Assembly: GCF_039724765.1 (NCBI RefSeq) | Contig: NZ_CP155729.1 | Location: 62,001-126,000, forward strand | DNA from: Sagittula stellata E-37 | Lineage (GTDB): Bacteria > Pseudomonadota > Alphaproteobacteria > Rhodobacterales > Rhodobacteraceae | DNA length: 64,000 nucleotides | Direction: 5' to 3' | Part shown: piece after piece, positions 29,103 through 31,271 of the stretch | Position numbering within the stretch: position 1 is the stretch's first letter | Layout: every line of letters starts with the position of its first letter | Program-made: the position numbers and the translations under genes | The notes under the pieces: generated by a model | The model's input: the letters and a program-made list of their open reading frames with translations, nothing else | Databases searched by the model: none | Told to the model about the DNA's origin: nothing

Positions 29103-29858
29103 ATGACCCTTGCCCGCGCCACCGAACAGAATGCCTCAAATGCCGCCGATGACCGGCTGATCGTGGCGCTGGACGTCCCGAACGTGCTGGAGGGCATCGA
29201 CCTCGTGCAAAAGCTGGGGGACACGGTGTCCTTCTACAAGATCGGGCTGGGTATGCTGACCGGCGGCGGGCTGGCGCTGGCGAACGAACTGAAGGCCGAA
29301 CACGGCAAGCGCATCTTCCTCGACATGAAGCTGTTCGACATCGGCGCCACCATCGAAGCGGCGGTGCGGGGCATCGCGCAGTTCGACCTCGACTTCCTCA
29401 CCGTGCACGGCGACCCCTACGTGGTCCGCGCCGCAAAGCAGGGCGCTGCCGGGTCCGACCTGAAGATCCTCGCCGTGACCGTTCTGACATCGCTGGACCG
29501 CGACGACCTCGACTCGGCGCTCATCAAGGATGGCATGATCCCCGACCTCGTGACCGAGCGGGCGGGACGCGCCTTCGAGGCCGGAGCGGACGGGGTGATC
29601 TGTTCGCCGAACGAGGCGGCGCAGATCCGCGCCCTGCCGGAGGCCGACGGGCGCCTGATCGTGACCCCCGGTGTGCGCCCCTTCGGTGCCGACGTCGGCG
29701 ACCAGAAACGCATCGCCACGCCGGCGCAGGCGATTCGCGATGGCGCGGACCACATCGTCGTCGGACGCCCCGTGCATCGCGCCGCATCGCCCAGACAGGC
29801 GGCAGAGGACATCGTGGCAGAGCTGCGCTCCCCTCAGGCGCAGCGCGCGAACACCTGA
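29103..29858 (+). CDS. pyrF: Orotidine-5'-phosphate decarboxylase
   Basis: 251 residues, TIM barrel, last step of UMP synthesis. It begins LIVALDVPN, with the catalytic Lys-Asp array in FLDMKLFDIGATIEAA, then TVHGDPYV, and the phosphate-binding end VTPGVRPFGADVGDQKRIATPAQAIRDGADHIVVGRPV. The overall length is slightly above typical (about 230) because of N- and C-terminal tails. It is divergent from clpB. Confidence 0.95.
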   Translation: MTLARATEQNASNAADDRLIVALDVPNVLEGIDLVQKLGDTVSFYKIGLGMLTGGGLALANELKAEHGKRIFLDMKLFDIGATIEAAVRGIAQFDLDFLTVHGDPYVVRAAKQGAAGSDLKILAVTVLTSLDRDDLDSALIKDGMIPDLVTERAGRAFEAGADGVICSPNEAAQIRALPEADGRLIVTPGVRPFGADVGDQKRIATPAQAIRDGADHIVVGRPVHRAASPRQAAEDIVAELRSPQAQRANT

Positions 29859-30238
29859 ACGTTTCAATCACGCCCTGAAACATGTGAGCCGTCTAAATCC
29901 AGCAGGATTCAGGCGGCTCTATCGCTATATCTGGTCGATTTTGGAACCGTGTCGGCGGGCTTTGCGTTTTTTACCTGTTGGAAGTGCAGAAATGCCGATC
30001 TGGCGGAGGCAAACGTGGGCAACGTTCGAAATAATTTGACACGTGGTCGTGATGCAACGCTTGCCGCAAGGACAACTATGGGCGAAAAGGCGCCTAGAGC
30101 TGCGCTGTATTCCGCTTGCACATTGGAGTCACAGGGAAATTCCTTACCTGACTCTGTGATGAAACTTATCCACAAGTTCTTACGTTATGTGTATACCGGG
30201 GCCAAAAATGAGGTCCGTCACAAAAAAGGGTTGAGGTT
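29859..30238. other. 380-bp AT-richer gap after pyrF, with a hairpin and a DnaA box
   Basis: No credible gene. It contains a nested hairpin at 29886-29919 (outer GAGCCG/CGGCTC, inner AATCC/GGATT), probably ending pyrF transcripts, then relatively AT-rich DNA carrying a perfect DnaA box (30166-30174) and three GANTC sites (29906, 30126, 30150), the CcrM methylation target in alphaproteobacteria. It likely holds the promoter of the 92-residue gene. Confidence 0.55.
30166..30174 (+). promoter_or_regulatory. Perfect DnaA box TTATCCACA
   Basis: An exact match to the 9-bp consensus, 65 bp before the start of the 92-residue gene. A reverse-oriented near match (TGTGTATAC, one mismatch to TGTGNATAA) begins at 30188. 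Too few boxes for an origin; a DnaA-influenced promoter is the more modest reading. Confidence 0.45.
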
Positions 30239-30517
30239 ATGAGCGATATGACACCCCGAATTCACGACGTCCGTTACAACGCCGCCGAACAGTGCTTCGA
30301 GGCTCTTGTGACCCTTCACACGCCCGGTGGACGGGTGCGCGTGGCCAGCACGTTCTCCGCGCCGATGACCACCGATTTCGAGGCCGCCTCGCGTGGGTTG
30401 CTGAACACCGCGCTGATGGCGTTGGGCGACCGCGCCGCGCTGAAATCGCGCGAACTGCGCACGCCGATCGTTCCGCCGCGCACCGCCGTGGCGTCGCACA
30501 TGCCACACGCCGCCTGA
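30239..30517 (+). CDS. Conserved-looking 92-residue protein of unknown function
   Basis: A soluble small protein: MSDMTPRIHDVRYNAAEQCFEALVTLHTPGGRVRVASTFSAPMTTDFEAASRGLLNTALMALGDR. The first 55 residues look like an antiparallel beta-sheet, followed by a helix and a disordered tail. A TGAGG ribosome-binding site precedes the ATG. The upstream DNA holds a DnaA box and methylation sites; two RNA-like repeats follow. I do not recognise the family. Confidence 0.7.
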   Translation: MSDMTPRIHDVRYNAAEQCFEALVTLHTPGGRVRVASTFSAPMTTDFEAASRGLLNTALMALGDRAALKSRELRTPIVPPRTAVASHMPHAA

Positions 30518-30546
30518 GAGTTTTCGTCGTGCTGTCGATGGTATCC

Positions 30547-30674
30547 GGCACGACACCTTCTGCCTGCCGCTCATACGCCTGTATGAGCCTGCCTGACCGA
30601 CCCCCTTCTGTCCCTCGGGGCGCGGTCTGACTGCCGGGGCGCCGCACGCTGCCTTTCGCGGCCCCCGGCTTTTT
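30547..30674 (+). ncRNA. Candidate small RNA, copy A of a tandem pair
   Basis: A gene-free block with a conserved core: GGCACGA, then TCTGCCTG (30559-30566), then hairpin CTCATAC-gcct-GTATGAG (30570-30587), then GCCTGCC and CTGTCCC. It ends in a terminator-like GCCGGGG / CCCCGGC stem followed by TTTTT (30633-30674). A diverged copy lies 190 bp downstream with compensatory changes in the hairpin, which is strong evidence for selected RNA structure. An additional stem GTCGTGC/GCACGAC (30526-30554) overlaps the 5' side. The promoter was not identified, so the 5' end is approximate. Confidence 0.55.
30633..30674 (+). terminator. Intrinsic terminator ending sRNA candidate A
   Basis: GCCGGGG (30633-30639) pairs with CCCCGGC (30663-30669), the CGC/GCG inner pairs extend the stem, and five T follow. 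No protein gene on the plus strand lies between this and the 92-residue gene ending at 30517. Confidence 0.6.
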
Positions 30675-30741
30675 CTCCCCAAGCGGGAGACCCATTTTCG
30701 CCGCGCCTGCCCGTCATGGCCTTCCCGTCATGGCACTGCGT

Positions 30742-30862
30742 GGCACGATCTGCCTGAAGCCCATGCGCCTGTATGGGCCTGCCTTCCGGGATCTCTACTG
30801 TCCCCTGAGACCCGGACAAACTTCCGGGACGTGTCAGTTTCAGACACGTCCCGGTTTTTTTT
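30742..30862 (+). ncRNA. Candidate small RNA, copy B of a tandem pair
   Basis: The second diverged copy: GGCACGA, TCTGCCTG (30749-30756), hairpin CCCATGC-gcct-GTATGGG (30760-30777), GCCTGCC, CTGTCCC. Compared with copy A one stem pair changes T-A to C-G and another A-T to G-T while the GCCT loop is unchanged. It ends in a perfect 12-bp stem with eight T on the plus strand. That terminator cannot serve the flanking Nudix gene, which is on the minus strand, so a plus-strand non-coding transcript is implied. A CCGTCATGGC direct repeat (30711, 30725) precedes it. Confidence 0.6.
30824..30862 (+). terminator. Strong intrinsic terminator ending sRNA candidate B
   Basis: CCGGGACGTGTC / GACACGTCCCGG, a perfect 12-bp stem, 7-nt loop, then TTTTTTTT. 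The stop codon of the opposing Nudix gene lies inside the stem. Confidence 0.9.
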
Positions 30863-31271
30863 GACCCGAGTGCAGATAGTTGGCGAGGATGCCGCGGAAG
30901 GGCCAGACAGCATCCGGAGCATTGACGAAATCCATCGGTGCGATGGCCGCCCACTCCAGCCCTTCGCCGCCAAAGCGGACCTCATCCACCAGACTTGCCG
31001 GGCCATGCGCCGCGAAGAACCAGCTTTGCCGCCCGTCGACCTCGCGCAGGTGCACCCAGCGGAGCAGGCCGGGGTCCAGCGCCAGCCCCAGCTCCTCACG
31101 CGTCTCTCGCAGGACGCAGGCTATGGGGTCTTCGCCGCCTTCCGCCAGACCGCCGGGGAAATCCAGCATCCCCGGCCACGACAGGCCCGGCGCGAAGTCG
31201 CGGCGCAGGACCAGCAATTCGTCGCCGGCGAACAGCATCACCTTGGCGCCGACGAAGCGGCGGCTATTCAT
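30840..31271 (-). CDS. Nudix hydrolase
   Basis: 143 residues with a complete Nudix box (GGLAEGGEDP...RETREELGL), which binds Mg and hydrolyses nucleoside-diphosphate derivatives. The substrate is not evident from sequence. Its start overlaps the NfeD gene end by 8 bp, so it is likely the last gene of the SPFH-NfeD-Nudix operon. Its stop codon lies within the terminator of the opposing RNA candidate. Confidence 0.88.
   Translation of the reverse strand: MNSRRFVGAKVMLFAGDELLVLRRDFAPGLSWPGMLDFPGGLAEGGEDPIACVLRETREELGLALDPGLLRWVHLREVDGRQSWFFAAHGPASLVDEVRFGGEGLEWAAIAPMDFVNAPDAVWPFRGILANYLHSGQKKPGRV

Follow-up and report, generated by a model that had tools for sequence, protein, structure and literature searches.

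What are the two related blocks that stand in tandem behind a small protein gene of Sagittula stellata E-37, and could they be RNA genes with a function of their own? The window in which they lie, that is, the whole stretch of DNA that was analysed, comprises 64,000 nucleotides (contig NZ_CP155729.1, positions 62,001 to 126,000), and positions are counted within it unless a genome coordinate is given. The two tandem structured blocks are real, and their elements are as follows:

30547..30674, plus strand: RNA copy A, with hairpin 1 at 30569-30588, hairpin 2 at 30595-30627 (CUGUCCC of its loop at 30608-30614) and a terminator at 30634-30674
30738..30862, plus strand: RNA copy B, with hairpin 1 at 30759-30778, hairpin 2 at 30785-30816 (CUGUCCC of its loop at 30798-30804) and a terminator at 30824-30862

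The 5' ends of both copies are putative. The locus is probably a general-stress operon, which would encode a small protein together with one small RNA (sRNA) or two, each with a C-rich loop that would probably act by pairing with mRNAs. This reading is supported by comparison, namely by the conserved RNA structure, the fixed loop and a promoter that goes with NepR.

Structure and conservation of the RNA blocks

Both blocks folded in the same order, with hairpin 1, whose loop is GCCU, then hairpin 2, whose loop contains CUGUCCC, and finally an intrinsic terminator; for neither block was any of 200 shuffles as stable (z -5.35 and -6.60). In the initial annotation, the blocks were described as sharing several elements at a distance of 190 bp. 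All of these elements were found in both blocks, and the distance was correct for four of them: TCTGCCTG (30559 and 30749), hairpin 1 with its GCCT loop, GCCTGCC (30587 and 30777) and CTGTCCC (30608 and 30798). GGCACGA (30547 and 30742) was spaced 195 bp. The stem of hairpin 1 was found to be 8 bp long, not 7 as described, with GCTCATAC/GTATGAGC in one copy and GCCCATGC/GTATGGGC in the other; the described changes between the copies, a compensated pair (T-A to C-G) and a wobble (A-T to G-T), were both present. A terminator closes each block, as had been stated. Terminator B has a perfect 12-bp stem followed by eight T, and terminator A has a bulged 6+5-bp stem and a 12-nt loop followed by C and five T. 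The simple terminator scan allows loops of up to 8 nt and therefore does not list terminator A. When the window was searched with the 4227 families of Rfam 15, no match at or above the gathering threshold was obtained; the best sub-threshold match over 30500-30900 reached 19.6 bits and was on the opposite strand.

Covariation was counted in 17 aligned copies (27 pairs, 415 pair cells) with 500 shuffles and slid-partner controls. These copies came from 15 of 19 sources; one duplicate (L032), two loci without a match (L073 and L107) and one with a minus-strand match only (L095) were left out. Standard pairs occupied 92.5% of the cells compared with 75.4% in the shuffles, 20 of the 27 pairs were altered on both sides compared with 11.2 in the shuffles, and the covariation score was 0.463, with a shuffle mean of 0.182 and values of 0.049-0.121 for slid partners. 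None of the 500 shuffles reached the observed value of any of these three measures. In hairpin 2, two-sided changes were found in 9 of 10 pairs while the unpaired loop sequence stayed constant, and the broadly conserved part is the CUGUCCC hairpin rather than hairpin 1. An alignment of six copies made from sequence only gave two-sided changes in 9 of 34 predicted pairs. Stem loss without compensation in relatives had been named beforehand as evidence against RNA genes; the 17 aligned copies displayed the opposite. The description that fits best is the one originally proposed, in which two RNA genes in tandem have diverged and their stems have changed in a compensatory manner.

The covariance-model search suggested in the initial annotation was carried out with a model built from six Sagittula copies. 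Relatives of the RNA were detected behind the same small open reading frame (ORF) in further genera, with E-values of approximately 1e-16 to 2e-5. Matches at L002:7999, on the minus strand of L023 and L095 and on the minus strand of the window (two) were judged to be chance and dropped, and weak matches at the right place in L012, L013 and L015 (17.1, 17.1 and 11.4 bits) were not counted. The arrangement of the Sulfitobacter type differs: the first hairpin carries CUGUCCC and the second carries UGCCUGCCUG (L010 and L012 by folding, L013 by sequence). The second motif stands alone near the ORF in L014 and L015, and neither motif was found in L009 and L011. Loci of this type were scored weakly or not at all by the covariance model. 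Most genera would have a single RNA, and the full doubling of the unit with its own terminator was found in two Sagittula genomes. In S. salina, an additional CUGUCCC hairpin is present upstream of its full copy (z only -1.33), and the doubling may therefore predate the two genomes in which it is complete. Overall, a conserved RNA gene family adjoining the small protein gene is real. No description of this RNA for the bacterial family was located in literature searches; the main text of an sRNA survey of Ruegeria pomeroyi (PMC4809877) contains neither pyrF nor clpB, and such an RNA may be listed in its supplements.

The loop was also recovered when no motif was chosen beforehand. Among all 6-mers in the 150 nt after the ORF at 80 loci, TGTCCC was the most enriched (36 loci compared with 2.7 expected, 13-fold), followed by GTCCCT, TCCCTC, runs of T and CTGCCT (25 compared with 2.6 expected). 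The predicted probability of being unpaired averaged 0.78 at 43 TGTCCC sites and 0.40 at 125 similar C-rich words.

Promoter, small protein gene and the general stress response

Two motifs of the sigma-EcfG type precede the small ORF:

29943..29968, plus strand: P1, upstream sigma-EcfG-type promoter, GGAAC-N18-GTT, an exact match; the close relative G002 keeps both boxes and differs in the spacer
30161..30186, plus strand: P2, proximal sigma-EcfG-type promoter, GAAAC-N18-GTT, 78 bp before the start codon

A P2-type motif was located 77-79 bp before the ORF in four Sagittula genomes. According to the available text of two sources (PMC8103513, PMC6180224), the canonical EcfG promoter boxes are AAC and CGTT, as given in a review, and GAAAC occurs in the promoter of a Sinorhizobium RpoE2-induced gene. 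Promoters were counted in the 130 bp upstream of the ORF at 79 of 84 loci, after exclusion of four near-duplicates and of one locus whose upstream region was short; the strict motif was GGAAC-N16-18-GTT and the relaxed one G[GA]AAC-N16-18-GTT. The strict motif was present at 38 of the 79 loci, with 0.003 expected per locus from the surrounding DNA. It was found in 32 of 55 genomes with a NepR match and in none of 16 without (Fisher 1.9e-5); when GAAAC was allowed, these values became 43 of 55 and 0 of 16 (9.5e-9). TGTCCC behind the ORF followed NepR as well (29 of 56 genomes with NepR compared with 3 of 16 without, p 0.024). In four Mameliella loci (L004-L007) and a Mameliella-like one (L056), the RNA and the ORF were conserved and no EcfG-type motif was found within 130 bp; L007 has such a motif at -243, and the genome of L056 has NepR yet no motif within this distance. 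In S. stellata, phyR, nepR and ecfG stand together in one locus, with nepR at C1:179459 and the RNA at C1:92548-92862, approximately 87 kb apart. The RNA gene family very probably belongs to the general stress response.

P1 follows pyrF closely and precedes the small ORF by 296 bp, and nothing was identified between P1 and P2. The genes around the RNA are the following:

30239..30517, plus strand: small protein gene, 92 aa, ending in AA at the C-terminus; without a Pfam or NCBIfam match, a beta-beta-beta-alpha-beta fold being predicted
29103..29858, plus strand: pyrF, a conserved neighbour; 68 of 72 loci have it within the flanking DNA that was retrieved
30840..31271, minus strand: convergent NUDIX hydrolase gene, its 3' end overlapping terminator B

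The profile of the small protein matched 76 of 394 genomes of the family and 2 of 289 genomes in the class sample, both of the same family. Scanning with the small protein yielded 14 named loci from Sagittula, Mameliella, Maliponia, Sulfitobacter and Roseobacter; 40 further stretches were added to the loci that were read, and the six weakest-matching genomes were left out. The usual context comprises clpB, pyrF, the small ORF and often the NUDIX gene; pyrF precedes the ORF at some loci and follows it at others. A shorter form of approximately 60-70 aa, which may be paralogous, was also gathered by the profile and counted together with the rest. Two paralogues of the small protein per locus were observed in L089, L097, L101, L102, L103 and L107. 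A search for a known fold gave no secure match for the small protein.

Proposed action of the RNA and alternative explanations

Under stress, PhyR would take up NepR and thereby free sigma-EcfG, which would transcribe the small ORF together with the RNA that follows. Short, terminator-ended RNAs, one in most genera and two in two Sagittula genomes, would then arise either through partial termination or through cleavage by a nuclease, for which RNase E is the likeliest candidate. Each RNA would expose an unpaired CUGUCCCY loop and CUGCCUG stretches, and the loop would pair with target mRNAs at G-rich stretches, which probably lie close to ribosome-binding sites, with the result that the translation or stability of these mRNAs would be altered. 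Antisense pairing appears to be the likeliest mechanism of the RNA. In this scheme, the transcription and processing of the RNA, its pairing and its targets, as well as any action of the small protein on it, are inferred.

The complement of the loop, AGGGACAG, was found before an ATG at 88 places in four genomes compared with 35 for the backward control. This excess may merely reflect ribosome-binding sites, and only 20 of the places, picked for looking shared, were read. One such place was before the ATG of rpoH in two of the four Sagittula genomes. Of 56 rpoH leaders found, 43 were read and 13 were dropped with an unrecognised start. GGG[AG]CA was present in 9 of 20 leaders from genomes with a TGTCCC RNA and in 11 of 23 from genomes without it. 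As a target, rpoH was rejected as unsupported, the counts for GGGACA given below pointing in the wrong direction. Separately, an EcfG-type motif was observed upstream of rpoH in 6 of the 43 leaders (G000, G001, G002, G003, G356 and G172), including all four Sagittula genomes.

Several observations weigh against a stress-induced pairing RNA. The evidence comes from DNA sequence, and no target mRNA was found, rpoH having been tested and not supported; GGGACA occurred in 4 of 20 rpoH leaders with a TGTCCC RNA and in 11 of 23 without it (p 0.11, the wrong direction). On the promoter side, GAAAC was admitted only after the promoter of the window itself had been seen, the motif is missing at 12 of 55 loci from genomes with NepR, and two loci from genomes without a NepR match (L055 and L070) agree with it at 7 of 8 positions within 130 bp. 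The NepR profile covers 35 positions, so that some of the 16 genomes counted as lacking NepR may hold an unseen one, and two of the 16 are less than 90% complete. The loci are related by descent, and the p-values consequently overstate the evidence. With respect to the RNA, the alignment used for the pair count was fitted to the structure, TGTCCC was absent from the 150 nt after the ORF at 44 of 80 loci, and in many of the loci listed the terminator was not detected or a single hairpin alone was found. The covariance model is narrow and matched 6 of 295 genomes of the family, probably because it was built from close copies, and one of these six matches (G223) lies behind another gene.

The blocks could instead form a mere structured 3' end of the small-protein mRNA, consisting of a terminator and a stabilising hairpin, in which case the protein would be functional and the RNA would have no role in trans. 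Their position directly behind the ORF agrees with this, as does the finding that neither a sigma-70-type promoter in front of the blocks nor an EcfG-type motif directly before them was detected; in addition, some relatives, among them L068 and L096, seem to keep little besides the terminator. Nevertheless, this explanation seems unlikely, considering that the unpaired loop is constant while the stem changes at 9 of 10 pairs, that TGTCCC is enriched as described above and that two genomes carry the complete unit, terminator included, twice; a plain terminator needs none of these traits. Improbable, though compatible with the other explanations, is a protein-binding site in place of an antisense RNA, with the hairpins recognised by an RNA-binding protein, perhaps by the small protein as an autoregulator. 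The repeats might also be considered a DNA element with operator-like palindromes, since hairpin 1 is also an 8-bp palindrome as DNA. However, the G-U wobbles, compensatory stem changes, strand-specific terminators and loop conservation fit an RNA, and a DNA element is highly improbable.

One further element touches the promoter of the proposed stress operon:

30166..30174, plus strand: perfect DnaA-box sequence TTATCCACA, inside P2; 0.04 expected in the window

This sequence was found on either strand within 200 bp upstream at 31 of 78 loci, the present locus among them. Of the 23 loci having both box and promoter, 6 had the start of the box 25-28 bp ahead of the promoter, and in 12 it fell within the promoter, at 5-6 bp from the promoter start in 5 loci and at 23-24 bp in 7; the remaining 5 had it elsewhere. 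The genome of 5.29 Mb contains 27 copies of TTATCCACA and 16 of the backward control. The box was independent of NepR (22 of 56 genomes with NepR compared with 5 of 16 without). A replication origin at the locus was rejected: in a coarse sampling of 21 stretches, the guanine-cytosine (GC) skew turned from negative to positive at approximately 0.25-0.48 Mb and not at 92 kb. Since a perfect DnaA box overlaps or adjoins the EcfG-type promoter, production of the RNA under stress may be gated by DnaA. It is doubtful that the stress operon is also wired to the replication initiator in this way, with the uS5/dsRBD-like small protein as an RNA-binding partner of the RNA. If true, such a protein-sRNA stress operon would be of a kind new to Alphaproteobacteria, in which an RNA couples DNA replication to stress. 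That the box and the promoter coincide makes one ask whether replication and stress are linked.

Comparison with known RNAs

Many marine bacteria belong to Rhodobacterales, and little work has been devoted to what PhyR-NepR-EcfG does in this order; according to the available text of an R. sphaeroides study (PMC5830050), PhyR had previously not been analysed in any member of this order. In that text and in the GsrN survey (PMC5869019), no sRNA is described as part of the general stress response in Rhodobacterales, a word that does not occur in the main text of the GsrN paper. The conserved operon, the promoter confined to NepR-positive genomes, the fixed loop and the uncharacterised small protein provide a direct, testable entry.

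In Caulobacter, CcnA has a CCCC loop pairing with GGGG in target leaders and lies at the replication origin, with DnaA boxes in the region, according to the available text of PMC8959179. The present RNA is likewise alphaproteobacterial, with a C-rich loop and DnaA boxes in the region. However, its locus is not at the GC-skew switch, as far as the coarse sampling allows.

CcsR (cuckoo) RNAs carry a pyrimidine-rich motif, have CCUCCUCCC in their loops and contain two motif copies per RNA. In Rhodobacter, the CcsR1-4 RNAs with CcaF1 (also called cuckoo or CIN1 RNAs) follow a small-protein gene under an alternative-sigma promoter and are processed by RNase E out of this operon, as described in the available text of PMC10253847. 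The present locus is similar in its small-protein gene followed by related sRNAs, its alternative-sigma-type promoter and its pyrimidine-rich motif. It differs in that its small ORF, without a Pfam or NCBIfam match, encodes no DUF1127 protein, its promoter is of the EcfG type instead of RpoHI/II and CCUCCUCCC is in neither copy, whereas nine copies are found at a separate locus. This CcsR-like locus (L122, at approximately 1.77 Mb of C1 in the same genome) has a DUF1127 gene followed by nine CCTCCTCCC copies and would hold four or five CcsR-like RNAs if there are two copies per RNA. The three DUF1127 genes of the genome are all away from the RNA locus. As two defining features fail and a separate CcsR-like locus exists, identity with CcsR was rejected, in agreement with the initial annotation.

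GsrN of Caulobacter is a sigma-T-dependent sRNA whose C-rich loop pairs with katG, and relatives are named for Caulobacteraceae, Rhizobiaceae, Brucella, Rhodopseudomonas and Bradyrhizobium (PMC5869019, main text). The present RNA was set beside it by described features and resembles it in a putative sigma-EcfG-type promoter (here a motif before the ORF, none being found directly before the RNA), in the general-stress context and in that the most conserved part is an exposed C-rich loop, here CUGUCCC with a predicted mean unpaired probability of 0.78. It differs in its position behind a small ORF, in the loop, which is not a run of six C, in the doubling of the unit in two Sagittula genomes and in the distance of approximately 87 kb from nepR, whereas proximity to phyR-ecfG is typical of GsrN-type RNAs, though not in C. 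crescentus. By analogy, the best reading is that the RNA of S. stellata would function like GsrN or CcsR.
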